Shown piece by piece: positions 5,913 through 34,337 of a stretch of 64,000 bases of DNA. The stretch comes from Ganoderma boninense (lineage: Eukaryota > Basidiomycota > Agaricomycetes > Polyporales > Polyporaceae): positions 5,286,134-5,350,133 of the forward strand of contig CM035304.1 of assembly GCA_002900995.3 (NCBI GenBank), written 5' to 3'. The position numbers and the translations under genes are program-made. How positions within the stretch are numbered: the first letter of the stretch is position 1; each line of letters opens with the position of its first letter. The notes below the pieces were generated by a model. That model was not told the DNA's origin. It saw only the letters and a list, made by a program, of their open reading frames with translations, and made no database searches.

Positions 5913-6324
5913 TCAGCATGCGTAGATAGTCGTGAGGTGATTGCGCTCGGAATGAACAAACACAAGGCCAGGAGCAGAGTCACATTCCAAGTTGGGCAGG
6001 TACTCGTGCGTCGCAGGGACGGTGTTGCAGTAGACGTTGCCTAGACACCACGCGAATGGGATGAAGTAGAAGTGCTCGGGGACGGCCGCCGCCGTGATTA
6101 TGTATGATGCCGTTTGCCATGCTTCAATCAAATACATTGTGAGTATCAAGGGTGAGAAATTACTTGTTCGCTACGTGATAAGTGCACTTACACTTACAAT
6201 GGGGACTGTTAACAACTTGTTCAGCTTGCCGAAAGCCCCTAGACGGGTGCGCGAAGAATCTGCATCATGGAGAATATATAGGACTTGGCGCAAAGAAGAG
6301 GCCGCTAAGAATTGATAAAGTGTC
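5913..6324 (-). pseudogene. DUF6534-like membrane protein, 3' fragment
   Basis: C-terminal part of a basidiomycete multi-pass membrane protein resembling DUF6534. From the 6324 edge the frame reads through LHDADSSRTRLGAFGKLNKL, which matches the family's SRTGF...LLN region. After an intron (about 6197-6122) it continues with PEHFYFIPFAWCLGNVYCNT, matching the terminal membrane segment of the family. The conserved ATLNxR motif that should follow is damaged (ATHEYL). The fragment begins exactly at the left target-site duplication of the KDZ element, and its continuation seems to lie at 24964 and above. I infer one gene split by the insertion. It has probably also decayed afterwards, since the exon join needs an alternative donor. 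Family assignment is from remembered consensus, not a search. Confidence 0.5.
6318..6324. repeat. 7-bp target-site duplication, left copy
   Basis: AAGTGTC here is repeated directly at 24964-24970, flanking the KDZ element. Joining the flanks through one copy gives a continuous minus-strand frame into the DUF6534-like fragment. The adjacent bases differ (C against G), so an original 8-bp duplication with one change is possible. Confidence 0.6.
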
Positions 6325-6403
6325 CACATCATTACATCATTATATACTGGTACCGTTACTTACCCGGTTGTGCATAATCGCTGTCCTTGCTGTTGACCCG
6401 GCC

Positions 6404-6632
6404 CCGGCCGGCTTGTCCAATATAGTTGATCAGAGCGTCCGGCCGGCCACTATGCATGTAGTACTATGAACGGCGTCCATATGTCGTCCCTCAACCCTAA
6501 ATATTATGAAGTACTGTTATACTACTTTAATGATGAAACAATGTGTGCAGAAAGGCTGGAATTTGAAGCGCGCGCCAATATCCGTTGGGGTGGCCGGCCG
6601 GTAAGCATAACCACACCTAAGCCTCCGGCCGG
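6404..6632. repeat. Left subterminal CCGGCCGG cluster
   Basis: Four CCGGCCGG octamers at 6404-6411, 6439-6446, 6594-6601 and 6625-6632, some within the longer palindromes CCGGCCGGCC and GGCCGGCCGG. Matching octamers occur only near the opposite end of the element (24552, 24807, 24878). Clustered subterminal repeats commonly bind transposase, so that is the inferred role. Otherwise 6325-6715 holds no gene. Confidence 0.5.
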
Positions 6633-6715
6633 AAAGCAATTCTACGGACAATAATCCAGCGCGACGCACATGTACTTATTCATATCTACCTCCATACTGG
6701 TCACCGTACAAGTTA

Positions 6716-7717
6716 TCATTGTAGATCCTCCCATAAATCATCTACCCCGGCCCATCGTCGTATCAGCGAGTTCTGGTACACTCGCCAGAAGTTGGGACTT
6801 GTAGGAAACGGGGAATCCTGCAAAGTACGAGCCATTGACTGCCCGTCTTGAAGTGCTTCCAACGTTGCGGAAATAGCATCCCGCTTGTCGCGGAAGTAGG
6901 CCAATCGTTGGTGACCCGGCATACGCACGTCGATGTGATAGGTCGAAGGCGATCGCTCTTCGTTCCCCTCGGAGTATGGAGAAAGTGGGGGCGATGGTGT
7001 GGCATCTTGCGAGGGAGTAGCGAATGTCAAACCTGGTAAGATGCCATCCAACATGCATGGCGATGGTGTCACTGCACGCCTGTTAGTTAGTGTACCCAGT
7101 ACTGTTCAAGCGAATGACTTACCATCTAGGACAGGATTGGCGATGATACTATGCGAGCCTTCATCCTCGGAATCTGAACCCTCCGCATCTGTACTGTTCT
7201 GTGTGGGCGCCGCAGAGTCCTCGTCAGCCTCGCCCACGACAGGCAACTGAAAATCACATGCCTCTACCAATGCGACGTCCTCCACGATTGGTACAACTTT
7301 ACCAACGGCCAACCCTGGTGCCGTAGGTCCCGGCACCTGTTCGCATGCCACGGTCGATCCCTCACCAGAGCCATCGGGCGAAGAGGGAAACTCTTCTCCC
7401 TCTACTTCGCCCACAACCGGAAACTCCATCCAGAACAGGTCGTCATCATCGTCGTCCTCTCCGACAACCGGCAGAAAAAGGTCTTCTTGTACCACAGCCA
7501 CAGGCTCGTCATCCGACTCTCCTGTGATAGGCAAAAACAGCGTGCTGATGTCGAAGGTATCAAGCTCATCGGAGCCCAACGCTGCCGTCCTCTGTGGAGA
7601 TTCTCCTACGATAATGTCGAGCATGGGCGGTGTACGCGGAGTTGGGCTCCGGAACCGGACTGATTTAGAACCTGCCGGCTCATCTAAGTAGGGCAAGATG
7701 GACTCAAATATAAACAT
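6716..7717 (-). CDS. Acidic protein with repeated LPVVGE motifs
   Basis: Two exons, 7717-7123 and 7071-6716, are joined across a 51-nt GT-AG intron in matching phase and give 316 aa. I do not recognise the family. The N-terminal 175 residues are strongly acidic and repeat a short motif four times: LPITGE (about 62), LPVVGE (82), FPVVGE (99) and LPVVGE (158). A related IIVGES lies near residue 36, and each copy is followed by an Asp/Glu-rich run. The C-terminal exon is basic to neutral with aromatic residues (FWRVYQNSLIRRWAG) and may fold. The gene is the outermost one on the left of the KDZ element and diverges from the 8068 gene. Repeated short linear motifs suggest multivalent binding to a partner, but that is inference. 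It could be an element-encoded accessory protein or captured cargo. Confidence 0.6.
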
Positions 7718-8067
7718 TTACTTTCGCTGGGGGGGCGCGATACACTCCGATCTCGCAATGCGGACGGTAAGGGCCGGGGAGAGCTGCCGCGAACTGGATT
7801 GGGTTGTGTGGTGTCCTCCCCTATCGCTGGTGCCTTCTGTTTCTTCGACCTCCCTGTACGATATCAGCAATATAAGTGAAAGCAACAACTCCCAGGAACC
7901 AAGAAGCTTACTGGAGGTTCGTGCCATACCTCGCAGTAGATGGACGGAGGGTGCCGGTCGTGACTCTACAGGTGGTGGGAGTCACGCGATCCCCGATATG
8001 ATAACGATCACAAGGCTGCCGTCCTTGTCCACGCCCTCCATTCCTCAGATACCTCCCTCATCGTCGT
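7718..8067. promoter_or_regulatory. Divergent intergenic region
   Basis: 350 bp between two divergently oriented element genes, so it should hold both promoters. No clear TATA box or operator repeat was found. The frames crossing it show no protein-like features. Confidence 0.3.
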
Positions 8068-11000
8068 ATGCACCTCACCATGGCCGTCAAACCCCCACCA
8101 ACCGACGAACAAATCACTGAAGTGGTAGAGTACGCAAGCCAGCTCCACTACGGCTTCCTGGCACGTCCTCCCCTGGGCAGCGATGGTCGCATCAGTTGGG
8201 AGAAGCGATTCCTGGCTACCTTCGGTCGAATGTTAGCAGTTCTCAACGTGGCACGCTTCAAGCTCCTCCCCCCGTTCGCTCTCTGCTGCATCTGGGAGAA
8301 CAACCGTCGCAGCCGCTTCAAGGAGCAGAACATCGACATCGAGCTCATTCGCCCTGCCTACGACGATACACATCCAGGACGTCAAGAAGGAGCGGGAAAA
8401 CTCTCCTACCAGCCCGCGTACAAAGGACCCTTCGCTTTGCTCCCCGAAGCTGAACTTAGGACGGTGTGGTGGACGCAAAGTGGTCCCCAAGGTGAGTCTT
8501 TCATTCATTATTCATAGCGCAATCCGGACCTTAGTCGATTCTACGGGATCACGCAACGGCGACAGGACGCCTTGAACAGCAGGCAGCTCCGGTTGCCGGT
8601 GATCAGCATGCGCACGCAGGAGTAGTACATGGAGATGGTGAGATGGAGGTCGACGGCGATGGGGCTGATGAACAGATGGAGGTGGATTCAGGACATGCCG
8701 ATGGAGAGTCCGAGGTCGACGAAGATGCGGACGTGGGGTCGGGACCTGCCGATCACGAGGAGGACGTGGATAACGAAGGCGGCGGCGGCGGTACGCGTGG
8801 GCGGAGCACTATCCGAACCCGCCGCACTACACGATCCACATCCCGCGGCCCCCGTATTCCTCCCGCTCCATCTGTAGCGCAGGGGAAAGGTAAAGGGAAG
8901 GCAGTCCGTCGTGAGGCAGCATCGACGGCAGTGGCACAGGGCATGGCATCCTCCAGCAACGCACGCGGCACCGGCATGCTCGGTACGAATGCCAAGGGCA
9001 AACAGACGCATCGCGGCACCTGCACATTGCAGGACATTCCTCCCGCTACCATTTCTACCACTCCAGTCGTTCATGTGAGTCCTCCAATTGTCACCTTCGC
9101 AAACTTGCTGAACTGCTCAAAGCCACGCCCATGTGTTCGGTGCGTATCGCGGGGCGTGCAGTGCATGTATTCTCCTCTTGTCCGTTCAGGGTGCGACCAA
9201 TGCGATACCAGCAATGCCGGCTGCTCCCTGACCTTCAAAGACAAGAAGAACCACTTCATGGCAACGTATCTGGGGTATGCGTGGTATACTATGGTCTCAG
9301 ATCCCGACGTCTACGCGGCACCAAACTTTTCCCCCACCCAATGGCCAACGGCCCTTCCTGAAAGTCACACGATCGCCTGGTTTCGCAAACAGTATGACGC
9401 CCAGCCGCGAGGCAGTTCCGCTCGTACCAAACGAAAGCATGCGCGCGACTTAGGCAAGGCCGCTGCAGCTCTCACGGACGACGATGCCAATGACGTTTTC
9501 GCTACCGCCACAGGTGCCGCGGATGAGGATGATCACGAGCAGGCTGCCGCGCCGTCCAGGCCCTCACGAAAACCAACGGCACGACCGACATCAGCCACGC
9601 CATCTCGCCGTCCCTCTCCCGCCCCAGCACTACCAGCCCCAGCATCTCATGCCGCTACGGCACCTCGATCGAAACGTGGTGGAGCTCGCAACCCCTCGGG
9701 AGGTGCTGCCGCCGAGGTCGGTATGTCGGCTGGTGCTGCCGCGGCTTCTTCTAGTGGTGCTACGGCGCCCTCGTCGATGGAATCTGTTGGGCACTTCCAG
9801 GCCGAGGCTCACGATGCCATCGCTGCACCACTCTTCGAACTTCCGCATGCATCGTCCTTCGAACCAAGCACGGTTTCGCATAGTCACAACTACGACGGCG
9901 ATATCGCTTCCGTTCCACCCATGGACCTGCCGCCGCCCGTCAACAGTTTCTTGCCCTCTGGCAGAAACACTATGGACGTTCCGCCCATGCGGCAGCTCGC
10001 GGTATCGAAGGTGCCGGCCGAGCTCACACATCGTACGTCATCTCAGACATCTCTTCCCGAGATGCCGCCACGCCCTCCCGGGGTTATGAAGTACGTGAAG
10101 GCACCTTTCTCCATGAAGCCGATCACTGGTACGCTTTGCAGGGATATGTTCCACGTTCCATTGAGCGCGACTGACATTTGGTATGCAGAAACGTGGGAGG
10201 ACTTACCCAGATTGGGAGGCCGTCTCCACAGCGGAGAGTACGCCATCGTCGATCCGCCCCATGAAGATCCTACCCCCAATAGGGTAGCGGCCTTGCTCTC
10301 GTACGGCATAGACGACACGCCGTTGCTCAGCCGGCTTCACGAACAAACAGCAGCTCCCCTTCCTCCCAGTTCCGCACGCCCCGTAACCCCCGAGCACAAT
10401 CAGTTCACGTTGTCCAGCAACGTCATTGACCTTGCCCAAAAAACAAAGGCCACATTCGACCAAATCGTCTTCCTCCAGTCTGAGCTCAACATGGATACGA
10501 AGGTCCTTCATGCCCATGCCGAGGGCCTCAAGGATCGGCACCAAGAAACTATCGCTCAGCTTGGAGATGCGGGAGACGCAATCCTCACAGATATCCAGGA
10601 CGCGTTTGCTGCTCTTCAGCGCGTCAACGAGGTCCTCATTCGCCTGACGGCAGGGTTCAAAGCCATGCCTACGGTACCGTGGAACTGGTTTGCTCTCTTG
10701 GAGCTGCTCACGAAGGTTGACGACCTTCGTGAGCTGTACGCGACGGCATGGGCGCGATTCGACGTCCTGGAAGAGGACATGCGCCCTGTCCGCTCCGAGG
10801 TGCACCGCCTGAGGAACAATGTCACTGCAGTGCAGCTATGCCTTGACGGCATTGCGAACGATGCTGTCAGGGCTTGCGAGCCCCTTCTCCACAATGTCTA
10901 CGAACATTTCACGGCTAAACTCAATGGCATCGACGCACGTCTCGGTCGCCTCGATGGTGGAGCATCCGCGTCGGCCGCCTCAGTCGAGCCGGACATCCGG

Positions 11001-11522
11001 CAGGTTGCTCAGGCGATGACGAGACTGGGCGAGCGAATGGATCGATTGGAGAAGCGCACTGGAGACGCCATGGTCGCTCGTATGGAGGCAACAATCAGCA
11101 CCTATCTCGCGGACCGCGGCCTGCCAGAGGACGCTTTGCGGCAGCTGGGCAGTCAGTTCGACTATATGCCTGAGCCTCCAGAGGCCGGCGGCAGCATTAG
11201 CGACGCACTCCACACGATCTACCCACCGCCGTCTACTGGCGGTCACCTTCCACAACCGTCCACCAGTGGTCAGCAGTTCCGTACGCCGCTCGATACGGTT
11301 ACGCAGGTAGGGAAAGGTGCCGGCACGGCAGGGATGTCAGGCCAACCCGGGCAGTCGCGGGCAGGTGGCGCACAGACGTTCCCCGCCACTATCACGCGGG
11401 CAGACCCCATCGCCGCACACAACACAACCTCGGAGGCTCCTGTGCAGCGCTCCGTGGAGGGCAACCTGCGAAACACCACGGCGGCTGAGGTTCCTGTGTG
11501 CCGCAGTACTCGGCAACGTTGA
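8068..11522 (+). CDS. Large KDZ-element protein, Zn2Cys6-like cluster
   Basis: Two exons, 8068-8491 and 8566-11522, give about 1,126 aa. The acceptor GCGACAG was chosen because it is the only nearby one that keeps phase. The start may instead be the in-frame ATG at 8080. The protein has an N-terminal folded-looking segment (residues 1-140), then acidic and Arg/Gly-rich low complexity. Around 9124-9216 lies a cysteine cluster spaced C-x2-C-x6-C-x9-C-x2-C-x6-C, exactly Zn(II)2Cys6 spacing, although the usual basic residues are missing. A long Pro/Ala/Ser-rich linker follows. The region coded at about 10400-11200 has regular hydrophobic spacing (LAQKTKATFDQIVFLQSEL and onward) and is likely coiled coil. 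Whether the Cys cluster binds DNA is unknown. It is probably an element accessory protein, as similar Cys-rich unknowns are common in basidiomycete mobile DNA. Confidence 0.65.
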
Positions 11523-11670
11523 GTGCGCGCCCACACGGTATCTATACGTCCTCAGGACTGATTACGAAGAACGTGCTACCGATGTAACATCTCAGAATCA
11601 ATTCTCGCATCCAATTTGTAACCTATCTTTCGATGGTGAATACATGTTCTTGTACAGACTTGGCGGAGTG

Positions 11671-14397
11671 CTACGAGCGGTATGCCACTGCCCGCGACGA
11701 CCTGCGAAGAGGTACCGCACGGCGGCTACTCTCCTCTGTTTCCTCCACAGCTACGGATGGGGCCGCCGCTCTGCCGCGGGCTGCCGCCATGGCCTTTCCT
11801 TTACCCTTCAATGTGGCCGCCACTGGTACAGTGTCAGGATTGTTGAATGCACTGTCGCACACTTTCAACAGTTCAGCGCGTTCGACACCTTCTAGAGAGG
11901 AACACGCCATAAACGTGGGGATGTCGTCGGGCCATGGTGATGTACCATTGATGGAAGCCAGAACGGATAGGTCGTGGAGTGTGATGCCGATGACGAGACA
12001 GAACCGCTGCTTCTCTGCCGGAGAAGCAGAGGAATCACGGTTCTTAGAAATCCATTGGATTAGTTGGGCGGCCTTCTTATCGTTTCCGTGGACTGCAAGG
12101 GGAACGTGCGCAGACTTGTGACCCCATGTCCCCCAGAACACGGGGTTCTGCGCCTTCACCGGCACCGCAACCTGTAACTAAAGATGGACATCTATGAGTC
12201 CCTGGGTGCCAGGCTGGAGGCAAACGACAACGTACCGCATCCTGAAGCCTCGCCAAGAGCGCTACATATTCAGGGTCATCTGCCAGACCTTGAAGGTAAC
12301 TTAGGCGACAGCCAGGGGACTTGCCGACGTCGCATGGCGGGATCAGTGCGTCACGAACATCTGTGGATGCCGGCCGCAGTCTTCCAGCCGCTGAGGATGG
12401 CGATGGCATGTATTCCTGAGCGACGGCAGTGCTAGATGGCCCCTGGGCCTCGGACAGAGGATGCAAGCTGGGCGATGGGCGTACGTTGATGCCGTGGTTA
12501 CCAGGGGTGGACAGTGCACTTGCCGCCTCACGAACAAGCTCTGCCATGAGTGCATTCTCTACTTCGTCGTCTGAGGCGTCATCGTCCTGAGCGTCCGGTG
12601 TGAATTCATCCTCCGTGAAGTCCACTTCGTCGTCATCGGTGAATGTAAAGGCTGCGTCGATCTCGGCATCGATCCACGGCTTTGTAGACCCTGTTCCGTC
12701 CTCCTCTCAGTGGTGCGCCCTCCCGTTAGTGTGCACCGGCACGTCTAGCATGTTGTCGGAGCTGCCGGCGGTGGCGGCTCTCTCCGCATCCAGTTCTGCC
12801 CGTGCAGCGTCTATGCTTGCCGCTAGCATGGAGGACATGGCGGGAACAATGGGCTGAGGCATGGGGGCAGGCGACACTGTCGAGCGTGGCGTATGAGCTG
12901 TGTTGTCGTTGGCTGGTGGAGACGGCGGGTCCTCGAACTCCGGCACAGCGATTCCCTTCTTCGCGCGGCGTGCGGCGACCGACTTGACGATGCCGTTGTA
13001 CACGGCAGGGTGGTACTGCCGATTGTCGCCCGTACCCGTCTCGTAGTACGAGAATCGAAAGCGCCTCGGGGGGTCGGAGCCTTCCATGTCGATGACATGG
13101 CTGTAGAAGGTGGTAAGCATTCCACTAGGAATGTGGCTGGGATCGTTGAACTGGAAGCCCTCCGGCAGCATGCCTTCATCGAAGAACTTTGATGCGTTGG
13201 CCGCAAGAGAGCCCCACGGCGGTGAACGCATCGCCCGCCCAGCAGCGAGATCTACGTACGATAGGTGAGCGAGGGGCGACCGGCAATGAGTGTGAGGCAC
13301 GTACTATAGTGAGCCTTCATGTACTCTCGGAAGATCTCTTGCATCCTCCCACCATTGACAGGCTCGCCGTTCTCAGAGTCGACAAGGATAGGACAGCAGT
13401 CTGGGTACAACTCGAATTGGAAAGGGGCGGGGGGGAGACGCTTCGCAGCCTTCATCACTTGGAGGGTTTCGGCAGCTGCGAGGTCAGGACGAAGGGTGGC
13501 CTGGAAGAAGTTCCACGCGACCCGCCTGAAGTCTTGGTCCCATCCAGGGATATTCCTGAGTAGCGGGGTCGTCTTGTCATCCTCACGCCAGAGGTTTGAA
13601 GTGTCGTAGCTGTTGAACGTCATCAGTGCTGCGGCACGGAAGGGAGAGGTGGATGGAACGTACACGGCAGCATGTAGGTCACCCTCGTTGTCCTTGTACA
13701 TCCCGTAGATGAATATGGGCATGTTGCATTCGTGCCAGAACAGATGTGTCACCGATCGCATCCACTTCGGAGCCCGCTTCTGGGCGATGCTGCCAACAAA
13801 TGCCGTCAGGCCCTGGGCAATTCGCAGACAGGTGTGCGACATGATGTACATGGCCTTTATGCTGTCGTCGGGACCCTCAACCAGCCACTTCTTCGCAACA
13901 CGCTCGTATATAGCCTTTTCGGGCTCCGGCACCTGTTCCCAAAGCTGCCGAACTGCCGAACCTCGTCGTTCCATGCGTTGAGGTGGAAGACGCCCTCGCC
14001 ACCGGCCGACGCCTTGCGCTTCTCGACGCGCTCTCGAATGGCCTTGTCATTTTCCATGGCCCAGGCACGTTTGGCAGAGACGCGTTGCTTGACATTGATG
14101 GGAAGCGAGTCGGCCTTGGCCTTAGGTGTATGGTTTTGGAACCAGTTGCGCACTTTCTATGGGTGCAACATGTCAAGATGGACGTCGAGTCAATGCATTA
14201 AGACGACGTACTGTCGAAAAATGCTCAAATGTAAATTCGTGGTCGGCGAGGGAACGACCACGCATGATGTAGCGGACGCAGTTCTTGCGAAACTCTTCTT
14301 TGTCGCCGGTCGGGGTCGTGCGGTAGTTTACAAGGCAGGACTCGAGATATGTCGTCTCTGCCTCAGTCAGGTCCGTAGCTTTCGCCCGGGGAGCCAT
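11671..14397 (-). pseudogene. KDZ-element accessory gene with frameshift
   Basis: Minus-strand gene assembled as 14397-14212, 14156-13305, 13251-12236 and 12171-11671 (roughly 840 codons). I do not recognise the family. The N-terminus (MAPRAKATDL) leads into KVRNWFQNHTPKAKADSLP, a segment resembling a helical DNA-binding region. A conserved-looking core with FWHECNMPIFIYGMYKD and VAWNFFQATLRPDLA follows, then a low-complexity acidic tail and a final basic patch. Two lesions are visible. An 8-bp tandem duplication (CTGCCGAA twice, 13945-13960) shifts the frame between EVRQ and LWEQVPEPEK. An in-frame TGA lies at 12709-12707, which a 57-63-nt intron could remove. The duplication cannot be spliced out, so the gene is either broken or mis-assembled at that point. 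Confidence 0.6.
13945..13960. repeat. 8-bp tandem duplication causing frameshift
   Basis: CTGCCGAA occurs twice in direct contact on the plus strand. Deleting one copy rejoins the minus-strand frame so that DEVRQ runs straight into LWEQVPEPEK. The unit length equals the 8-bp target duplication made by hAT-type elements, so it could be an excision footprint. Replication slippage or an assembly error is also possible. Confidence 0.7.
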
Positions 14398-14793
14398 GTC
14401 GGCGACAGGGTGGAATGCGGAGAGTGGATGGGGAGAACAGCAGTGCAGCAGCAAGTCAGCAGATGGGGAAGAGGGAGGTGTGGAAGTCCTCTGTCCTGAA
14501 ATCGGAGCGGGGTAGATGGGATATACGTTTTACTTGACATTGCGGGATAATCGGGATAGTCGGAGTAACCACTGGGAAGCGCGGCGTTAACCGGGCCGCT
14601 GCACAGCTTTTTTTCCACCAATAGGAATCTGTTCCGCCTGCGCAGTCTGCTATCTTAAGGCTGATCCGTCACCTGCTTGCAGATTAACCTCTGCATCATC
14701 TTCGATCTGACTCATTCCCTCGTCTCACTCATTGATGCTGTTATTCATGCCCTCCCTCATCAATTCGCGCGCAGAGCTGCAACTGCCCGATTC

Positions 14794-16275
14794 ATGGTCG
14801 AATTGGAGTCGTACTTCACCGGTCTCTTGGATGGGAGCTTGACGAAGGGGATTGCAAATGCCCCTATCCCACCAAATCATTTGGAACGGGCCGCGGTGGA
14901 AGACTGCCGCACCATCTCCGCTACGGTGGCACTTGCGAGGCAGAACATTTGTAAGTCCGCTTTCATCGTGATACACGTTTTACGCTAATGTGGTGCAGAC
15001 CAGGTCAGCTGGGACGCAGTCGACTATGCCAACGAGGTATCCAAGGTCGCCCTACCCAATCCAGAGCTCGAAGCCCGCCTGATGGCGAAGTACCCTCCCC
15101 TGATCCCCATGGCTGAGGCAAATCGCCTCCACTACGATAACCTGCCGATTGTTTTGGGACCGGCGATCGTCACTGACGTCAAGGGTCGGATTTTACTTTG
15201 GTCGCTGCCGAATGTTCTCTTGGAGTCGCGGCAGGTTCGTTTTCATCTTTGCCTTGTTCATCGGCACCTAACGATAACGATTGGATACAGGCCGAGATAC
15301 TTCGTGCCACTCGTATGCTTGAAGGGCAGATGACTGTGGAGGACCCGGACCCCAGCGCGAAGATTACGAAGGGATGGTGTACGTCAGCTACATTTTATTC
15401 GAAGAATGGGCAATGGATCTCCAGCTCTACGCTGTTGTATCCTGCCGGATATCAGCAGGGGCATAGGGTGTGATCATTGAGCTCTTATTATCGGATTGCA
15501 GGGGACTTACCATGGGTTGCAGGGCGGAAGTATCAACCCCACACCCAGTGCCGACGTGAGAAGCACACGTGCCGCTGACTGGATGGCGGCCTTCGAAGAG
15601 AACGGTGGCATATTGGACGGCATCCTCGCGATGACTCACCCCGACCTATACGACGCCGTGCAAGACACGATGGAGACCATATGGCGCGAACATGGCGACA
15701 GTCGCCCAATCATGGCCACTTGGCCCACATGTTTCACGGCCCTCCAGGTGATCATTAATCGATCAACTTTGGGCCATCGAGACTGTCTTGGGGCACCGGG
15801 TTGGTTCGACCTCCTGACTACCCTCGGCACCTACGGAAAGACGGCCATCATGGAGCTCCGTGGCCTCGGCATCTCGCTGCCTTATGATTCCGGGAGCGTC
15901 GTGGCACTTGCGTCCAAGGTCCTCGTGCATGGCGTCCCTAAGGTCCGTGGCGAACGGGTGTGTTACGCCTTCTACATGCACAGTGCCGTCCTGCGGCACT
16001 TCAAGATGCATGTAGAGGCGGTGACATTTTCTAAGGTCCGACACTCCACCACCGATGTGCCGGAAGACCTCGACCACAATACGATCGCCGGGAGACTCCG
16101 TGAAATGGGTCTAGCAGGCACTGGTCGGCAGATGCCTGCCGGCCCGTTGGAACGCAATGCCGGGAGGACCATCGATAGCGGCTCGTACGGCAGCTCTGCA
16201 TCCAAGCCATCGGCTGCACATGGCGGTGGAGACAGCGAGGATGTGGAGATGGAGGACGGTGCACGCAGGGCATAG
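14794..16275 (+). CDS. TET/JBP-type 2OG-Fe(II) dioxygenase
   Basis: Predicted nuclear 2-oxoglutarate/Fe(II) dioxygenase of the TET/JBP superfamily, whose members oxidise 5-methylcytosine or thymine in DNA. Four exons (14794-14950, 14999-15234, 15291-15467, 15502-16275) join in phase and give 447 aa without breaks. The C-terminal half has the double-stranded beta-helix signature: HRD (His282, Asp284) for iron, GLGISLPYDSGSVVALASKV as the central strands, the distal His333 in LVHGV, and Arg342 in GERVCYAFYM, suited to bind 2-oxoglutarate. An N-terminal segment GRILLWSLPNVLLESRQ fits the LPG-like strand seen in fungal members. The start at 14794 is the first in-frame ATG. The gene lies directly upstream of the KDZ transposase on the same strand, as known for fungal TET/JBP copies. 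Superfamily placement comes from residue pattern and context; the substrate is inference. Confidence 0.75.
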
Positions 16276-16579
16276 GGTAAAGCCCCTCAGGCGTTCGAGA
16301 GGCTTGGCAATAGATACGGCGTGTGAGTACGACGAGGCGTGGATTACAATCCCAGTGTGCCCACACGCTGCTGCGGCTGCCGTAGATCCATGGACCTGAC
16401 ATAAGGCGAATTAAGGTGCGTGCTATACCTGCCGTCAGCGACCTGTGGTCAGCATCATGTTGGGCTGGGGATGAACTGTACAACGTGTCCAACAACGCTC
16501 TGGCTGGTGCCTTTACACCTCGCACCTCCCCCCACTCCACTGCATAGCGTCGCAGTAGTCTGTATGCGCCGCTTCGAGA

Positions 16580-19500
16580 ATGGGCGGACATCGTCGAACT
16601 CTTGCGCCGCCGCCTCTGTATAAGGAGGTATCCGTGGAAAAGCGGCAGAGGAAAGGTGGATCGAGACTGGTCATAACGAAGTCCCCGGTGTCCTTTCTCC
16701 CTACGGCAGATGCGTCGGCAGGCAACTCTGGGCAGGGCGCAACAGTTCCGCCACAAGCGGCAGATCTCCCGGCTCCTGAGGGCATCGACGACTACCATGA
16801 AATCGACTTTGAACCTGACGTTCGCCCTCCACGCAAGGGCAAGGTGTGCAAACCAAGTGTTCTTCGTTTTCGGGTGTGAGAGCTTAAGGTTCGCCTAGTC
16901 GCAAAACGATTTCCAACGGGAATTCCTCGCTGTGCAAGAGGAGTATATCCACCGGCACCTTCTTCAAGAGTCGCCGCCTCCAGAGGGAGCAGGAACATGC
17001 GGACATCCAGCACTATGGAGGTGCCTGACCTGCCATGCACGGCCGACATTCTGCTCGAACTGCTGCCGCGAAGCGCATCGCTCCCAACCACTCCATCGTG
17101 TCGAGTTTTGGGGGGGCACCTACTATCGAGCAGCGTGGCTCCGGCAGGTCGGCGTTCAGGTGCACTGCGGACACAACGGCGCTGCCTGCCCTGCGCTGGG
17201 CACGTACGAGGATGCCAGACATGGGGACCTCGGGCAGAGACATCTCGACACTCTGCCGTCCCTGAATCCGCACCGGCCAGGTCCAAGCCCAGTGTCATTG
17301 CCAGGGGGCTTCATGCCGGCCACAAACACGGACCTCTCCAGCGACATAGACGAGCGAGCATATCTCGTGGAAGACCCGGACTCCGATCTTGAGGATGAGG
17401 ATGCGGACTTCTACTACGGCACTCACCCTGACACGTCTACACCCATTGTCTCCGAGCTACCCTGGTTTGGGGAAGGGCCTCAGCGGCCGGCAGCGACCAC
17501 ATCGACCTTACACCCTGCGTCGGCAACGTATAGGAATGACAGAATGCTTGTTGTTGTCGACATCCAGGGCGTTCACGAGCTCCCGTTCACCTTCTGCGCC
17601 TGCCCCAACGCTCCAAGGGATGATCTCCAGCTAATTGATCTTGGCTACTACCCTGCGTCGATGCAGCTGCCGAAGACAGTATTCACGCGGCGCGTCCTTG
17701 ACGACTTTCTTCTCTGCAATAAGGAATGCAAGACATCTGCCAGGAACTACTACAACAAGCTCAGAAGGACAACGAACCCAGCATTCCCCCACATGGTGCC
17801 GGTGCGTTGCCGGTGAACGTCTGAGTCAGACAGCGTGGGCTAACCTCGCTAAACCTGAAGGACAGGTACAAAGAGCTACTAAGGGTCTCAAGGCAGTGGC
17901 GAACTATTCAGATGCGAATTAACTCTGGCTTCGCTCACCGCTCGGACGCTATAGGTCCAGGAGACCTTGCCATACGTTGCCCTGCTTGTCCGCAGCCTGG
18001 GAGCAACCTGCCCGACGGGTGGGAGAACGACGAAGATAGGTACGACATTGTCTGATGAGAAGTCCCCCCACTAACCGTGTGTTGTAGATGGAAGTATACT
18101 CGGTCGGTGGTGCTCGACGGCAACTTTAGCGCACAGCATCGGAAGATGCGTAACCCCGAGGACGACGTGCCGCTGGCCGATGGGCACGCGTTTATGGTCA
18201 CTGACGGGCCATACAAGGAGCATTTGAAGACGGCGGCAGAGTTCCATGAGGTTCGTGGTCGTACGCGTGCGCTTCAACTTTACTAAGTCAAAACTGTCAT
18301 CTCTACCAGAAAACAACTTGCAATGACCATCGGGCGGTTCTTACAGCTACCCTCGACCGCGCTAACCTCGAGGCAACTGGAATCGGCGCAGCGGCATGCT
18401 CTCGGCATGGCTTCTTCGCTCCGCACGCCTGTGTAGACTTCCAGCAGGGAGAGAGGTGCTTTCTATACGTCATTCACGCGTCGTAACCACAAGCTCATGC
18501 CGCTCCCTAGGCAGCGCAACATGGACTACATTCTTCACTGGATCTTCTTCTATTTGCATGGCCTGAGTCATGTGCTGATCCTATACGACGTCATGTGTCA
18601 GTACTTTGTGCATCTCTACGCTCGATTCACGAAAAGCCCGCACCTTCATATGCCGGAGGGACTGACGATACTGCGAGGAATTGGGCAATTCCATGTCCAC
18701 GGTCATATCCCGAAATGCTATCCTCGGTTTTCCGTCAATTTCATTTCAGGCGCTGGCGTTCAGGATGGCGAAATCATCGAGACTCTGTGGAACAAAACAA
18801 ATGCAGTTGCCGACAGCACTCGCGGCATGTCCGCGGCACATCGTCGGGAGGTAATTGATGACCACATGAACGATTCCAATTGGATGAAACTTACTAGGAT
18901 CAGTAAGCACCCATCAGCTTCAGGCATTCACGTCCTCCAACTCCGCTAATCGTGCACTCTGTGCCGCGTATATCCAGGCACATTACTCACTCAGAAGTGG
19001 CGTCGGGCTTGCCAGGAGTGGCGTCCAGCCGTAGAAGCGTTCGAGCAGCTCACCCAAGGCTCGGACCCACTAAAGTGCGAGGAATGGAGACGGGAGGCAG
19101 ATGCCGCTGACGAAGCGAGAGCCTCCGACCCTTCTGCCATGGACATCTACGATGTCGCGACCAAGCCATGTAAGCGTTACACACGATGAGGTGACAGAAG
19201 AGCGCTCACAATCGTTGAATATGTACTGCATAGTGCCAACGCGAAAGGACGTCCAGATAATGCTCTCCGAGCAGGAACTGACCGACGGTGGAGCTGCCGA
19301 ACAACTAGGAGCAGCGGACTGGATAGGAAGTGGCCTCCGTATCGAGGAGACAAAGTATGTGCGATGATCGAAAATTGCTCCAACCCTACTTACCCCTTTG
19401 TAAGGTTGGCAGTTGCCTACTCGGCCAGAAGGGTGAAAGCAAGCTCTGGGACAGACACCCGACTGTCGTTGGTGCAGCAGCGGCAGCGCCTGGCAACAGC

Positions 19501-20464
19501 GATCGCAGCGTTCCACAAGGCCGGACGGAAGCACCTGCCGGGATACCTTCCTGGAGATGGCGGCGGCCTTGAAGAAGATCCAACGGTGTTTGGAGCTGAA
19601 TGGGACGAAGAGGGAGGTGCCGGCGACCACGCCAGCGAACCAGATATTGCTGCCGACAGGCCCGAAGACCAACCGCTCGGGCTTCCTTCGTCTTTCGGCA
19701 TCGACTTCCTCGCTCAGACAGGGCTACTCGACCTGGCAAAGAAGGAACGACATCTGCGAGAAGGTCAGCTCAATGATGCACTCCAAGGCATCCGTACGGG
19801 CATTGGATACAAGTCCCTCTTGTATCGCGCGAAGGTGCGGAATGCATCGTCGTTTCGGGCGAAGCTGCGCAGCTTCGATGACGTTCATATCGCCGATGAA
19901 GGAGTGCGGAAGCACGTACGGGTCTATCAGCAAGCACGGCGAGCTATGGGACGACTTTTCGATCCGGATGATGTGGACGACGCGCAGGCCCTAGTTGAGT
20001 TCCAGGCTCGGTACAAGGAAATTTGCAAGGAGGATCTGAGGGTGTCGACGGCAGTTATTGAATCATTTACGCCCGGAGTGCGCAACGAGCACTCGGCGTG
20101 GTTTTGGAACATATCTGACACCTCTTCCGGTGAAGACGCCCAGTGGATACAAGACTGTAAGTGCCTGTATTGTACACAATGCCCTGGCTAATAGTGAATG
20201 CGAACAGATCGACGGATGCTGTGGCTGAGGGCGTACGCACGGAAGGCTAGATGGGACGAAGAGCGGCAGCTCGTGCCCTTCGAAATGGACTGCACGGTTA
20301 GGTCTTTTGAAGGAAAGGCGAAAGAATGGGAGACTTGGGCTTTGAATGGAAGCCGCACACCAGGGCACCAGGCTTTTGCCTACCGGCAGATAGCCCTATG
20401 GCAGGCTCTTCGAGAGCATGCCGCGGCAGCATTCGCAACTGCACAGGCAACCTTTGTACCTTGA
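16580..20464 (+). CDS. KDZ-superfamily transposase, apparently intact
   Basis: Transposase of the Kyakuja-Dileera-Zisupton superfamily. Ten exons (16580-16843, 16899-17801, 17861-18039, 18088-18250, 18310-18455, 18511-18902, 18978-19169, 19234-19354, 19405-20156, 20208-20464) join with consistent phases and no stop, giving about 1,122 aa. Residues 122-155 form the KDZ-associated cysteine cluster (CGHPALWRCLTCH, then FCSNCC and two His). The catalytic region follows: VVLDGNFSAQH (Asp459), CNDHRAV, ATGIGAAACSRHG, LILYDVMCQY (Asp578) and DGEIIETLWNK (Glu639 or Glu642), the likely DDE triad. The C-terminus has LREGQLNDAL, GYKSLLYRAKVRNA and STAVIE, all usual for the family. No frameshift or nonsense change was found, so the protein may be functional. 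It should cut and join the element ends in the nucleus. Confidence 0.88.
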
Positions 20465-20974
20465 ATATATCATGTGACGGTGTGGGAATTTGCAGTCGTG
20501 GGGCGGCTGTGGAGACGATCGATATCTGCAGCGACCGATGTACTGCTCGACACTGCGCCGCCATGTCGCTGCGGACCGATGCCTCTATCCCCCCCACCTT
20601 CACTGCTGAAGACGCTGCCGCCTTGTACCAGCGCGAAGCGAATGCAGCTGCCATCGCCCTGCGAGAAGCAAAAGAGACGATGACTTCGGCACGTCTTGAA
20701 TGCCTTTTAGTGATATGGAGGGTGCGCGAAGCCTTGCAGGCATTGCCGAGACCGGCGGACAACATGACGATCAGGCGGTGGAACCATGGTATTGCCCGGG
20801 AGCTGGTAGGCAGGGCTTAACGTTATCGACGTCAGCTATGCACTGACCGCTGCCCACAGTGGATAGCGATCTCAGCGCTGGGATTAGCTGGCGCGTTGGA
20901 GATGACATTCTCCGAAGACAAGAGCGCAGCTATTCTGTCGTCGCAGCCGCTCACATATCTCTTGCGTCACCATA

Positions 20975-23634
20975 TGTTGTAGTATTGATGTATCATGTTA
21001 CGACTAACACCCTAGAGCGTTTTACATCAGGTTACGGCTAAAAGTGCGATGTATCAGGAACCTCTGGAGCCTCCGGGACAGCTTGTCGTCGCTTGCCTTA
21101 TTTAGGAGGTCCTCCTCCGGGGCCACTGATGGCACAGCATTGCTGCCTCCCAGGCTTATCTAAGCTTGTGGACCACTGTCCCGGGTGCCTGGGTGCCTCC
21201 CCCATCAATTCTGGGCTCCCTCCCATCAATTCCGGTATTCCCCCATCAATCCTGGGCCCCCCCCATCAATTCCGGGTTCTCCCATCATTCTACCAACCTC
21301 CTGCCCCTCCTGTCCCAATATGGCAGTCTGTCCTTCCTCCCGGAATTGTGTTAGCTGTATCTCCCTCATTTCTGGGTGTATTGACTTCGTTCTTTTTGCA
21401 TTATGTTCGTCTAATTAACGCGCTTCTAATGCACCTAACACGACAATACAACGAGGGTTATAACATATACTAATGGCCCCTCTATAGTCGCTCTAGGGGG
21501 GAATGTTTGGCCCATATCTCGGCCGTTTTTGCACGCATTTGCTCGCGAGAGGGCGCGTTTTGTTCGCGTGATCGACGCGCACAAAACGAGCCCTCTCGCG
21601 CCCAAATCCGTCCACCCGTTCCTCCGGTGCATATATCCCCTCCTCCTGGGGAACAGGTATATGCACCTTGGGAACCACTGGACCGATTGGCTTCGTTCTT
21701 TTTGCGTCTGGTAGCTACTAGTAAGTGCATTCTAGGCGTACAAACTGCATACAGGCGCACCCAGTCGCCACTGTATGGGGGGGGCATCAATAGTCACCTA
21801 TAGTCGACTTCTTCCCCCCATATCTCCTTCGGTTCTTGGCCGTTTTCTGTGCCCCTTATATGCCCGGAAAGCCCTGTGTAAGGGCTTTCCAACGAGCCTA
21901 CATACGCCCCAATCCGTCCACTACAGCCCTCGGACCATGGGCCCCTTCTCCTGACTACTCCCCTCCCCACTGTTTGGCCCATATCTTGGGCAGTTCTAGG
22001 CCAATCCACTTGCTCTCTTTTGCGTCCTATGCATGCAATAGCACTGCTTGTAACCATGCAGTGTATATTACTATCCCCTCCAATGATCTATATAGAGTCT
22101 GTTATCAGTGGTACCTAGATCTACCCCCCTCTGACATATATGTAAGTGTTGGTAGCAGACTAGATCATATACACTACTTGAAAGCCCTTTGCAGCCGCTT
22201 TCCAACAAGCCCCAAACCATCCAAATCGGCCAAGAAATGGATGAGATATAGCTAATAGATCAAATGTACACTGGGGTGTAAGACACTTTAAGACAGGCAG
22301 TAAGACACTGCTCTCGGAAATGCCTTACTAGCCCAAGGGGTCCCCCTTGGCTTCCACAAGTTATATCTCAATGACTTCTTACCTGTTTCCCCTCAACTTT
22401 GTTGCATTGGATAGCTGTAATTGGCTGCTATCCGACCCTATAACTGCTTGTTTTATCAGGCAAATGGAAAAATTGTCAGAGGGGGGTAAACTGGTGACTA
22501 CTGATAACACCCTGGATATAGATCTACATGCCTGATAGTACTTTTCAGTGGTGAATTGGCTTGTGGTATAGTACACATATACAACGCAAAAGAGAGCAAG
22601 TGGATTGGCCTAGAACTGCCCAAGATATGGGCCAAACAGTGGGGAGGGGAGTAGTCAGGAGAAGGGGCCCATGGTCCGAGGGCTGTAGTGGACGGATTGG
22701 GGCGTATGTAGGCTCGTTGGAAAGCCCTTACACAGGGCTTTCCGGGCATATAAGGGGCACAGAAAACGGCCAAGAACCGAAGGAGATATGGGGGGAAGAA
22801 GTCGACTATAGGTGACTATTGATGCCCCCCCCATACAGTGGCGACTGGGTGCGCCTGTATGCAGTTTGTACGCCTAGAATGCACTTACTAGTAGCTACCA
22901 GACGCAAAAAGAACGAAGCCAATCGGTCCAGTGGTTCCCAAGGTGCATATACCTGTTCCCCAGGAGGAGGGGATATATGCACCGGAGGAACGGGTGGACG
23001 GATTTGGGCGCGAGAGGGCTCGTTTTGTGCGCGTCGATCACGCGAACAAAACGCGCCCTCTCGCGAGCAAATGCGTGCAAAAACGGCCGAGATATGGGCC
23101 AAACATTCCCCCCTAGAGCGACTATAGAGGGGCCATTAGTATATGTTATAACCCTCGTTGTATTGTCGTGTTAGGTGCATTAGAAGCGCGTTAATTAGAC
23201 GAACATAATGCAAAAAGAACGAAGTCAATACACCCAGAAATGAGGGAGATACAGCTAACACAATTCCGGGAGGAAGGACAGACTGCCATATTGGGACAGG
23301 AGGGGCAGGAGGTTGGTAGAATGATGGGAGAACCCGGAATTGATGGGGGGGGCCCAGGATTGATGGGGGAATACCGGAATTGATGGGAGGGAGCCCAGAA
23401 TTGATGGGGGAGGCACCCAGGCACCCGGGACAGTGGTCCACAAGCTTAGATAAGCCTGGGAGGCAGCAATGCTGTGCCATCAGTGGCCCCGGAGGAGGAC
23501 CTCCTAAATAAGGCAAGCGACGACAAGCTGTCCCGGAGGCTCCAGAGGTTCCTGATACATCGCACTTTTAGCCGTAACCTGATGTAAAACGCTCTAGGGT
23601 GTTAGTCGTAACATGATACATCAATACTACAACA
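20975..23634. repeat. Long palindrome with 1.05-kb inverted arms
   Basis: Left arm 20975-22025 and right arm 22584-23634 are inverted copies: paired coordinates sum to 44609 at every point I checked, and the predicted peptides of the two arms are identical. The 558-bp spacer (22026-22583) holds a second, diverged inverted pair (about 22090-22135 with 22470-22540). Arms begin TGTTGTAGTATTG. No target-site duplication is visible, although removal of the block restores the frame of the host gene. No transposase is encoded, so it looks like a foldback-type non-autonomous element. A transcript through it would form a hairpin of about 1 kb. Confidence 0.85.
21200..21290. repeat. Short tandem repeat in palindrome arm
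   Basis: Five imperfect units of CCCATCAATTCYGGG separated by short C/T-rich linkers, mirrored in the right arm at about 23319-23409. A minisatellite kept identical in both arms points to recent arm duplication or gene conversion. Confidence 0.7.
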
Positions 23635-24066
23635 GCAGCTGCTTGCGTGCGGCAACTTGGGATAGTCGGCGGCTGCGGTTCAGCGTCTTGAAGGTGGACG
23701 TGCCGACGTATTTGACGTTGAGCGCGCTGGATATTCGCGTCTTTCAAGGGTTGGAGGACAACGGCACCTTTCCGCGATGGTGGACGTGGTCTGTAGATGG
23801 TCCCGGAGAAGGGCACCGGTGCCCTGGATGGTGGCGCAACCCATCAGCCGACGTGGTAAGTGACTGCTCCGTGTGCATTGTGGACGGCGGATACTTACAG
23901 GGCGCAGGGACCACCTATGCCTGTCTTTGAGTCAGATAAAGATGACTTAGCGACAGTTGCCGGCGACATGTATCTCACTTTAGAAGCCATTATGGCTGAA
24001 AAGGAAGCCGACCTGCGGGAGATAGACGGATGTATCGCGGAGGAGGAGCTAGAACTCAGTCGATAG

Positions 24067-24963
24067 TAGTGTCTAAGCCAGGGAAGACGTTTGTAACCTC
24101 GTTATTGCTCCGGCAGCCCTGTATCTCATGTACACGTGCTCGAACATGCTTGCAAGCGTTTGCGCGGGCTGTGTGAATTTCAGTTTCAGCATCCAACACA
24201 TGGAACAAAGAGGCTGCCGGAAGTGATGGCAACCTATTGAAATAAGACATACTGCAGGAATGAGTCCCCCAATATAATTGCTACGTAGTATTAAGGCCTG
24301 TTTTGCTTGGGTGAACACGAGGATTCGGACTTACGTTTTTTACCCTGCCCGGCCTCTGGATTGGGGTGAGTAACATGGGGGTCCTAAGTAGTGGTATGAT
24401 ATAAAGATAGGCCCACAATGCGGTGAGATTACTAGTGATGTGGTAGAAAATAAGATAAATGTACGCATAGTACTAGTATATTGAACATATGCTTGGGAAT
24501 ATGCCTGCAGGAAGGCTACGTACCAGAGGTGGGAGCGGCTTGGTGAGGTGACCGGCCGGTAAGCAAGCGCCTCCATGGGGGGTAGCGGGCCGGGAAGCAA
24601 GCGCCTGGATGAAGTCGCCCGGCCGCTCGCCCAAGTCTGCATGCTGGCAACTTATACTCTGGGAGTGAATTTCTCAACTCAGCATGCTGAAAAACTTGTG
24701 CGATGGTGACTATCACTTGTTTGATGGCGCAGCTGTGTAGGAGGAGCGTGAAAGGGGGTACATGCGAGCAGTCCGGCCGAGGAGCATAGCCACATATGGG
24801 CGTCAGCCGGCCGGAACGCTGAAGGCGCTTATAGAAGGTGTCCCGCCCGGCAATCATGAGTGGCTATGTTGTGGGGGCCGGCCGGGGTCGGCTGCCTATC
24901 AAATGAAGGTACAATGCTCAGCCGGGTAAGTAGTATTATCAGGTATTGTAATGGAACGGGCTC
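24067..24963. repeat. Right end of KDZ element, subterminal repeats
   Basis: 897 bp without a gene. It contains CCGGCCGG at 24552-24559, 24807-24814 and 24878-24885, a partial copy at 24773, and CCGGGTAAGTA at 24922-24932, the inverted partner of TACTTACCCGG near the left end. The stretch 24067-24550 is AT-richer and shows nothing recognisable. Confidence 0.45.
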
Positions 24964-25145
24964 AAGTGTCGCCGTAACGACCTGTTTCGCCTGACGGAAT
25001 AAAACTAATGAGCAAGAGACGTACGTTTGCACCCTCTTCGACTACAAGAGATAAACTCAAGCCCCATAGCACGGCGAAGGAGAGACGTAGAGTTGGAGCA
25101 TGGTTGTTGTCCGACGCGCGCACCCGCCAATACCTGAAAGGCGGC
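24964..25145 (-). pseudogene. DUF6534-like gene, part beyond the insertion
   Basis: Minus-strand segment abutting the right target duplication (AAGTGTC, 24964-24970). It encodes YWRVRASDNNHAPTLRL followed by a hydrophobic stretch, weakly like the cytosolic loop and fifth membrane span of DUF6534 proteins. Read through one duplication copy it continues in frame into the fragment ending at 6324 (QVVTATLYQFLAASSL). The connecting intron would be only 34 nt and the 5' exons could not be identified, so this half is less certain than the 3' half. Confidence 0.35.
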
Positions 25146-32209: not shown

Positions 32210-34337
32210 ATGGCATCCACCAACAGCTCCGGCAGCACCGACATCGAGGCCGCAACATCCACCGCCCCCACTCCCGCTACCACCACATCCTCTGTCGAGA
32301 TCGCCCTCAACTTGGACGTCAAGTTCGTCGATTCGCGATGGGACGAACAGTCCGACTCGTGGAAGTACAATGATACCACCAACTCCGACATTGCCGCCGA
32401 GCTTGTGCAGCCGATGGGGGCTGAAGACTCGGGGAGCGACTCCTGGAAGGAGTATTGCTTCGTAGTCGTCCGGAAATATTCGAGGGTGCCGCCACATGTC
32501 AGGCCCACAATCACCTTCGAAGTCATCCTCAAGAGTCCGTACCTCATCAAAGCGTGCAAGGACATCATGGCTGACGTTCACGGGGTATCGTGGAATTCCC
32601 AGCCGATCAATGTGAGTTCCAGCGCGCATTCTTCACGTCCGCACTTTCCTAGAGCTCACCACGCTGCAGCTGGAACCTAAGGTACTCATCGCCTACTTCC
32701 CGCGGCTCGAGGCGTACGAACAGACCCTCTCGTCTCGCACCGGACGCACGGAGGAGGACGACCGTGTGATCAAGTCCCTCAAAGTGCTCCTCGTGCATAT
32801 GCGCAAACACTACAAGCAGACGCTGGCGCGCATCGCTACCCTTGTGGCAAACCACGAAATTACGTTCGACCTCCTGTATGCGATCTTGCTCCCCGGAACA
32901 ATCATCATCCGCCGCTGCCCCGTCACGCGCGAGACCCATGCGCTCAAGCTCCTGGCAGCGACTGACTTTTCCAGCATGGGGCAGAAGTTCTGGAGCCTCG
33001 ACTGCGAATACCTCGAGTACTCCGCGAACGCCGACGAAGATGACGGACAGGACGTTGGGTGGGGTGACAACACAGCGCAGCCCGTCCGCTTCGGCATGTT
33101 CAATGCTTGCGCGCAGATTCACGGGTTCGACGGCGTCGAGAAGATCAGCTCTCTCTCCGCGTACCCCATCGAGTTCCACCCCGACCCCTCATCACTCCAG
33201 GCCACGCTCCTCGAGCGTGCGCGCAAGTGGGTCTCCCTCTGCGGCATGCACCACATGCACTACCAAGGCAACGCCGGGCGGATGGAGTGGACTTCAGGCA
33301 ACCTCAAGCTCAGGCGGTACAGCGTCCGCTCGCGCATCATGATCGACAAGGCCGGATTCTCTCGCATCGACGCCAACTACGACCTCCCCAACCCTGAGCG
33401 CATGCTCCCACCCCGCGCTAACGCGGACGATGGCGTGTACGGCCTCACCGACGCAGAGCTCCTCCTCACACCCCCGATCGTCTACGGCTTCAGCCTGAGC
33501 GACAAGCTCTGGCTCGAGTTCAACGTCAACCACGTTGCGGCGATCGAGTGGAACGACGAGGCCTTCGCGGGCCTCGTCCTGCAGCCCGAGCGCAAGGACC
33601 TCCTCCGCGGACTCATCGAGGCCCACGGACGTCTTGCCTCCGGCGACGGCCCCGCGCGCTTCGACGACTTCGTCCGTGGCAAGGGTCAGGGCCTCGTCAT
33701 CAACCTCTTCGGCCCGCCCGGGGTCGGCAAGACGCTCTCGGCGGAGGCGACGAGCGAGCACCTCCGCCGCCCGCTGTACATCGTGGGGAGCGGGGACCTC
33801 GGGACGAGCGCAGGGAGCCTGGACAACGCGCTGCGGGAGGCGTTCGAGCTGGCGGCGGCGTGGCGGGCGGTGCTGCTGATCGACGAGGCGGACGTGTTCC
33901 TCGAGCAGCGGTCGCTGCACGACCTCGAGCGGAACGCCATGGTCGCTGTGTTCCTGCGGCACGTCGAGTACTACCGCGGGATCCTGTTCATGACGACGAA
34001 CCGGATCCGGACGTTCGACGAGGCGTTCCTGTCGCGGATCCACGTCGCGCTGCACTTTGAGGAGCTGAGCGTGGGGACGAAGGTGCAGATCTGGCGGGCG
34101 TTCTTGCGGAAGGCGGGGGTTGGGGGACGCGGAGCTAGAGGAGGGGGAGGGGGGGGACTGCTGGCGCGGCTTGCGGAGCGGGAGATCAACGGGCGGCAGA
34201 TCAAGAACGCGTGCCGGACGGCGACTGCGCTGGCGGTGAGTCGGGGGGAGAGGATGCGTCTCGAGCATCTGGAGCAGGCGCTGAATGCGATGGAGGAGTT
34301 CATGACGGACTTCGCGGCCGTCTCGGAGCGGACGTAG
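32210..34337 (+). CDS. AAA+ ATPase with DUF7025-like region, copy 2
   Basis: Paralogue of the 25941-28738 ATPase with only one intron: exons 32210-32611 and 32670-34337, 689 aa. DUF7025-like region: VLIAYFPRLEAYEQTL, VEKISSLSAYPIEFHPDPSS, MHHMHYQGNA, SRIMIDKAGFSRID. AAA module: FDDFVRGKGQGLVINLFGPP with Walker A GPPGVGKT at about residue 482, Walker B VLLIDEADVF near 536, then EQRSLHDLERNAMVAVFLRH and FMTTNRIRTFDEAFLSRIH. It is almost identical to the inverted copy at 51543-53689 except at the ends and over a short stretch near 34118-34157. There this copy reads Gly/Arg-rich where the other reads acidic, explained by one extra and one missing G. The loss of introns relative to the first copy suggests retroposition or intron loss before the duplication. 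Confidence 0.88.

Follow-up and report, generated by a model that had tools for sequence, protein, structure and literature searches.

A TET-bearing, Kyakuja-like KDZ transposon in Ganoderma boninense with CGGCCG sites at fixed distances from its ends

A KDZ DNA transposon of 18,639 bp (6325–24963, forward strand, a nested element of 2,674 bp counted in) was delimited in a 64,000-nucleotide window of the Ganoderma boninense genome (C1:5286134-5350133; contigs are labelled C1, C10 and so on) by comparison with other copies of its family in the 55.57 Mb of sequence searched (74 contigs). The element, of the kind that Iyer et al. (2014) are said to have named KDZ, has ends that are exact to the base, encodes a KDZ transposase and a TET/JBP dioxygenase, and carries CGGCCG sites at fixed distances from its termini, 80 bp on the left and 79 bp on the right; these fixed-distance sites are the new element of the analysis. 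The best explanation of the whole, which we regard as probable, is the insertion, at 6324/6325, of a TET-bearing, Kyakuja-like KDZ transposon that duplicated 7 bp of its target and whose ends would be recognised through the phased CGGCCG sites, which its own TET enzyme would keep usable. Window coordinates of the element and its ends are:

6325..24963, + strand: KDZ transposon (similarity of other copies begins and ends there; 7-bp duplication)
6318..6324, unstranded: left target-site duplication AAGTGTC
24964..24970, unstranded: right target-site duplication AAGTGTC
6325..6346, + strand: left terminus CACATCATTACATCATTATATA (alignment of left ends)
24945..24963, + strand: right terminus ATTGTAATGGAACGGGCTC (alignment of right ends)

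A reading of the sequence alone had described one KDZ element with both ends preserved at these bases, flanked by a 7-bp direct repeat, and had proposed the similarity limits of other copies as a check. This check bears it out. When the first 500 bp of the element served as a genome-wide query and the matches were realigned with 500 bp of upstream flank, all three other places began exactly at 6325, while with the last 500 bp and 100 bp of flank as query, 9 of 12 other places stopped exactly at 24963, two extended three bases more and one was an internal piece. A search for the terminal patterns (≤2 mismatches) hit 78 places for the left end, where the control gave 40, and 21 for the right, where the control gave 20; the sequence adjoining the terminus identified 8 true left ends (in the 30 of 78 inspected) and 12 true right ends (all 21 inspected), the remainder of those inspected being chance matches. 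There is no terminal inverted repeat, the left end reading CACATCATTACATCA and the right end GAGCCCGTTCCATTACA inward; the 5′ terminus is CA, and the 3′ terminus is TC in all 12 same-family right ends. A second conserved right-end block of the family, ATAGCCAC, lies at about 97, with its inverse, GTGGCTATG, at about 171.

For nine same-family copies a left and a right end could be matched. The flanking 7-mer is perfectly duplicated in eight and matches at six of seven bases in the ninth:

window 6325-24963: AAGTGTC, identical on both sides
C10:250401-267865: GCTCGAT, identical on both sides
C3:148893-166013: TAGAATT, identical on both sides
C8:3097203-3116426: TTCCATG, identical on both sides
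C1:6218970-6247158: GGACTCG, identical on both sides
C10:996992-1013595: TTCCGCG, identical on both sides
C6:439832-455611: CATGTCC, identical on both sides
C4:277021-285761: CGCTAGT, identical on both sides
C7:3721742-3744358: GGCGATC against GGTGATC (6/7)

No common motif is evident among the duplicated 7-mers of these nine copies. Outside the count stand C7:1076156/1075265 (not collinear, differing flanks), C30:6219 (similarity stops 84 bp in), C1:4383383 (no right end found), C2:3127908 and C1:250290 (left ends only) and, because of its inverted order, C4:4573647/4596310. At this last locus, near a contig end, a right end (4573647) and a left end (4596310) both adjoin CGCTTGC; the arrangement is either an inversion within an element or an assembly error. 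It is exceedingly improbable that the window coordinates mark a chance repeat or part of a larger element. That view can point to the genome matches, which include no empty allele: the genome-wide search found no second copy of either flank, each matching itself only. Independent copies nevertheless stop at the same bases with their own matching 7-mers, and the overrun amounts to chance matches of three bases at most.

Tet_JBP was matched in all nine full-length family copies checked (E1–E8 and C7:1082061), four of which were read closely: E1 (the window copy), E2 (the C10 copy), E3 and E4. The 8.7-kb copy C4:277021-285761 has no Tet_JBP match. Genome-wide there are 29 Tet_JBP matches, of which 22 exceed the cut-off; KDZ matches, counted exon by exon, number at least 152. 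Divergence between the window and C10 copies is uneven, about 12–15% over the first 3 kb and up to 30% near 9.5–10 kb and 11.4–11.8 kb, as if copies may have exchanged pieces.

The subterminal GC octamers that the earlier reading had noticed at both ends are present: CCGGCCGG starts at 6404, 6439, 6594 and 6625 on the left and at 24552, 24807 and 24878 on the right, and elsewhere in the window only at 28689. Their core, CGGCCG, amounts to inverted CGG triplets without a spacer and holds two CpGs per site. The core sites of the window copy are (all unstranded, offsets counted from the respective terminus):

6405..6410: CGGCCG, left ruler site, offset 80
6440..6445: CGGCCG, left offset 115
6595..6600: CGGCCG, left offset 270
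6626..6631: CGGCCG, left offset 301
24553..24558: CGGCCG, right offset 405
24620..24625: CGGCCG, right offset 338
24774..24779: CGGCCG, right offset 184
24808..24813: CGGCCG, right offset 150
24879..24884: CGGCCG, right ruler site, offset 79

Across copies, CGGCCG falls at left offsets 40, 80, 115, ~270 and 302 and at right offsets 39, 79, 114, 150, 184, 338, 371 and 405, with some sites missing in some copies. CGGCCG stands at offset 80 in 14 of the 15 left ends and at 79 in 12 of the 13 right ends, a second family (below) included; the exceptions are one left end in which a 6-bp insertion puts the site at offset 86, and the C30 copy, where similarity stops 84 bp short of the terminus. Seven of the left ends were found later, mostly through the motif, with the exact offset remaining free; when only the ends located through their terminal sequence are counted, the site is at 80 in 7 of 8 on the left and at 79 in 11 of 12 on the right. 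On average, a CGGCCG of the C8 copy has a counterpart at the same offset (±6 bases) in 5.6 of 7 other left ends and 6.5 of 10 right ends, against 0.29 and 0.78 for 6-mers lacking GGCC; because the ends are related, these figures describe the pattern and do not test independent events. The offset was also used predictively: with left ends placed by offset 80 at C1:6247158, C4:277021, C2:3127908 and C1:250290, CACAT stood at the predicted start in all four; at the first two, the flanking 7-mer was the one already known from the right end. At C1:4959563, which was excluded from the tally, the base at offset 80 does not start a CA terminus, and CAG lies at offset 79.

Pairs of CGGCCG 33–36 bp apart number 177 genome-wide (control 61). 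Eleven TET loci, which span about 0.44 of at least 26 Mb, have 26 of the 50 listed pairs within 20 kb, and 8 of the 11 have at least one pair among the matches listed; several belong to the present family. A left-type pattern was matched 82 times (control 4), which is not a count of ends because many matches are tandem arrays (C7:3539646-3563510) or other repeats; three left-like ends from this search (C13 twice, C72) were excluded from the tally. The C7 array locus is itself a TET/KDZ locus, bordered on both sides by tandem arrays of ~190-bp units bearing CGGCCG pairs.

The same spacing recurs in a second KDZ/TET family of this genome, C4:485817-508070, with termini CACATG...GGGCTG and CGGCCG at 80/115 on one side and 79/114 on the other. 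Inside its ends are inverted repeats of more than 1.1 kb, about 92% alike, and the element has repeated CGGCCG pairs; its 7-bp duplication GACAGTT is on its own modest evidence, because it was found by scanning some hundreds of positions. The arrays might instead be promoters or sites for host Zn2Cys6 regulators and play no part in end recognition, given that the outermost genes of the element adjoin both ends and that the motif is also a target for host regulators of that class. We judge this improbable: a promoter needs no fixed distance from the terminus, and the 80- and 79-bp spacing holds at nearly all ends, both families keeping the 1-bp difference between the two sides.

Genes were modelled with a small purpose-written gene finder using codon usage and substitutions against other copies:

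6716..7717, − strand: gene A, small protein, at least two exons, limits approximate (third-position substitution pattern)
8080..11522, + strand: gene B, ~1,098 residues, two exons (frame open in E1 and E2)
11671..14397, − strand: gene C, 696 residues modelled, nine exons (gene model, substitution ratio 0.15, homologs)
14794..16275, + strand: gene D, TET/JBP dioxygenase, ~391–405 residues, HRDxxG.....D (PF12851, E 4.3e-16)
16580..20464, + strand: gene E, KDZ transposase, 11 exons, 1,068 residues, open (PF18758, E 5e-48)
20563..24066, + strand: gene F, small conserved protein, split by the nested element

The genes of the element are under purifying selection. Between the window and C10 copies, the ratio of nonsynonymous to synonymous substitution (dN/dS) is 0.08 for the transposase, 0.20 for gene D, 0.34 for gene B, 0.15 for gene F (79 codons of its 5′ part) and 0.53 for gene A (a partial comparison of 196 codons, with homologous frames in the other three copies), against at least 0.93 in wrong frames of B, D, E, F and A. 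The intact transposase and the dioxygenase recognised by the sequence-only reading are both upheld. The transposase matches PF18758 over its full length (1–217) and CxC2 (E 6e-22), also has CxC1 and B-box-like zinc clusters, and ends at a stop, 20464, conserved in all four copies; translating the C10 copy through the window copy's transposase exons gives two stops. The closest solved structure to gene D is CcTet of Coprinopsis cinerea (PDB 7vpn, E 3.3e-16), and alignment to it places the residues of AG-type TET enzymes (Gly or Ser 331 and Asp 337, CcTET numbering) in all four copies, as HRDCLGAPGWFD in E1, with Gly in E2 and E4 and Ser in E3.

Zn2Cys6 clusters have the cysteine spacing CX2CX6CX5-12CX2CX6-8C, and gene B encodes a Zn2Cys6-like cluster, CX2CX6CX9CX2CX6C, whose cysteines are present and correctly spaced in all four copies; long helices are predicted near its C terminus, and a protein search returned homologs from Ganoderma only. 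The predicted structure of a G. sinense homolog of gene C includes HMG-box-like, weakly GTF2I-like and weakly homeodomain-like regions. In the gene C homolog P0005, residues 265–396 have a predicted fold resembling the GTF2I repeats of human TFII-I (several entries), a weak likeness (Foldseek probability at most 0.97, E 0.19) yet unexpected in a fungal transposon. Best protein matches of the element's genes come from G. sinense, G. leucocontextum and G. boninense. This gene set is also conserved outside the present genome: in G. sinense the counterparts of B, C and the transposase carry locus numbers close to one another (GSI_11220, 11219 and 11217) and, in both G. sinense and G. leucocontextum, the homologs of these three genes lie on contigs of equal size.

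On the reading that we favour, the KDZ transposase would cut and rejoin DNA at the mapped ends by cut-and-paste, and recognition of the ends would depend on the phased CGGCCG arrays, to which the gene B protein of the element itself most likely binds. Gene B is the proposed binder because Zn2Cys6 proteins typically recognise paired CGG triplets (inverted, direct or everted), which they bind as coiled-coil dimers (PMC5559640). Host CpG methylation could block binding, as every CGGCCG has two CpGs, and the TET/JBP dioxygenase would keep the element's own sites and genes usable. Methylation-sensitive ends are a reasonable idea because, in plants, methylation near CACTA subterminal repeats has been linked to lost activity (PMC4219821). 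Alternatively, the KDZ transposase itself, with its N-terminal B-box-like and CxC clusters, may bind the arrays, gene B being otherwise employed, for example in transcription of the element. We hold this to be possible rather than probable: end-binding by the transposase is usual in most DNA transposons, and this one carries CxC2, CxC1 and B-box-like zinc clusters, but it is gene B that has the cysteine spacing of a CGG-binding cluster in every copy read.

Several observations weigh against the favoured reading. The copies are related, which means that their ends are not independent of one another. A right-type pattern (SAGCCC, then CCGGCCG at 58–88) was no commoner than its control genome-wide (216 against 208). 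Support for gene B from PF00172 is marginal, with 21.5 bits for the E1 fragment against a cut-off of 21, values below it for E4 (13.1) and E3 (15, from a query one residue off, outside the six cysteines) and no match for the whole 995-residue frame, while the transposase's own zinc clusters offer a possible alternative binder. Three inserts that lack TET are low in CpG (observed/expected 0.62, 0.45, 0.36), a weak comparison because coding content and age differ, and no excess CpG change was seen between the arms of the nested foldback element described below.

Taken together, the CpG figures are compatible, weakly, with protection of the element: observed/expected CpG is also 0.79–1.26 in its non-coding ends (four copies) and 0.90–1.01 in host intergenic stretches, and in a comparison of two copies CpG sites had changed at 1.7 times the rate of other C sites. 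The dioxygenase might also act on transposon methylation generally or on host DNA, not on the element's ends. Oxidised methylcytosine does occur over retrotransposons in Coprinopsis and Laccaria (reported by others and cited in Kojima 2025, PMC12730594); against this stand the purifying selection on gene D between copies and the Tet_JBP match in every full-length copy checked, and we consider it rather unlikely.

Elements of this kind, with TET, a 7-bp duplication and no terminal inverted repeats, are already known, and it is the termini that differ here. The earlier reading held that full-length KDZ elements with defined ends are seldom delimited, which no longer holds in full, since Kojima 2025 (PMC12730594) delimits TET-bearing Kyakuja families, Polyporales included, with 7-bp duplications, CA..TG termini and no terminal inverted repeats; TET function in these transposons is described there as not experimentally validated. 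The present family shares with them the KDZ-type transposase, the AG-like TET/JBP enzyme, the 7-bp duplication, the 5′ CA and the lack of terminal inverted repeats. Its 3′ end, ...GGGCTC, differs from the ..TG of Kyakuja (PMC12730594), so we file it as Kyakuja-like KDZ and not Kyakuja proper; the second family in the same genome does end in TG. Fixed-distance CGGCCG arrays go unmentioned in the main text of Kojima 2025 (PMC12730594), from which the word 'subterminal' is absent, and a literature search pairing Kyakuja with Ganoderma returned no paper. Among other systems, Zisupton/Dileera also belong to the KDZ superfamily, with TET in some, but have 8-bp duplications according to Kojima (PMC12730594), against 7 bp here. 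Rust-fungus hAT7 elements (PMC12730594) have 7-bp duplications and, in some, TET, but use a hAT transposase, none of which was found here. In plants, CACTA/Spm elements, for example TgmR* of soybean (PMC4219821), are alike in having subterminal arrays thought to be bound by an element protein and methylation tied to activity, but differ in their unrelated transposase, short terminal inverted repeats and lack of a TET gene.

The 18.6-kb length given by the earlier reading holds as a span, yet it includes a later nested insertion that had gone unnoticed:

20968..23641, unstranded: nested foldback element, 2,674 bp (extra relative to the C10 copy)
20961..20967, unstranded: left copy of its duplication CTTGCGT, the second at 23642-23648

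Its arms of about 1.16 kb are 96% alike, its termini are CACCATA...GCAGCTG, and E2 represents the empty site, with a single CTTGCGT. It interrupts gene F of the window copy; a joint model in which the transposase runs on into gene F, and so is broken by the nested element, was rejected because the stop at 20464 is conserved and homologs P0017 and P0019 end there. The G. sinense entry P0029, in which the two are fused, is regarded as an annotation error. The C10 copy holds a separate insert of ~1.76 kb within gene F (element positions ~14148–15903, TGTC...GACA ends, observed/expected CpG 0.36, containing 100 N), so two of the four copies read carry an insertion in this gene. The C8 copy contains a relative of the foldback with its own duplication, CTGCGGG. 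The foldback family (~2.7 kb, 7-bp duplications, CA..TG termini) has 60 left termini genome-wide, 39 of them exact (control 0), four lying inside paired copies of the KDZ family; it may possibly be driven by the KDZ transposase of another family.

The suggestion that the transposon sits in a host gene whose frame continues across the insertion was rejected as unsupported: over the joined flanks the longest frame is 134 residues and no gene model crosses. The nearest modelled flanking gene is an AAA ATPase ending at 25941 (25941-27658, − strand, with a DUF7025 match); the frame at 32616-34337 (+ strand) looks similar by eye, and the two are perhaps a local cluster. A UbiA prenyltransferase frame lies at 851-1900 (− strand; PF01040, E 3.5e-15).

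Why fungal transposons carry TET enzymes is a question for which precisely delimited copies with fixed-distance CpG sites provide a defined DNA substrate, and the offset located ends of other copies to the base where the terminal sequence alone had not. We tentatively propose that KDZ elements of this kind measure their ends, requiring the CpG-bearing palindrome CGGCCG 80 bp from the left and 79 bp from the right cleavage point, where their own Zn2Cys6 protein would read the sites and their own TET enzyme would keep them unmethylated. If true, this would amount to a cryptic mirror symmetry without inverted repeats, and to a methylation-sensitive lock carried with its key on one mobile unit. 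The ruler and the TET gene together suggest how such an element may recognise itself and escape silencing.

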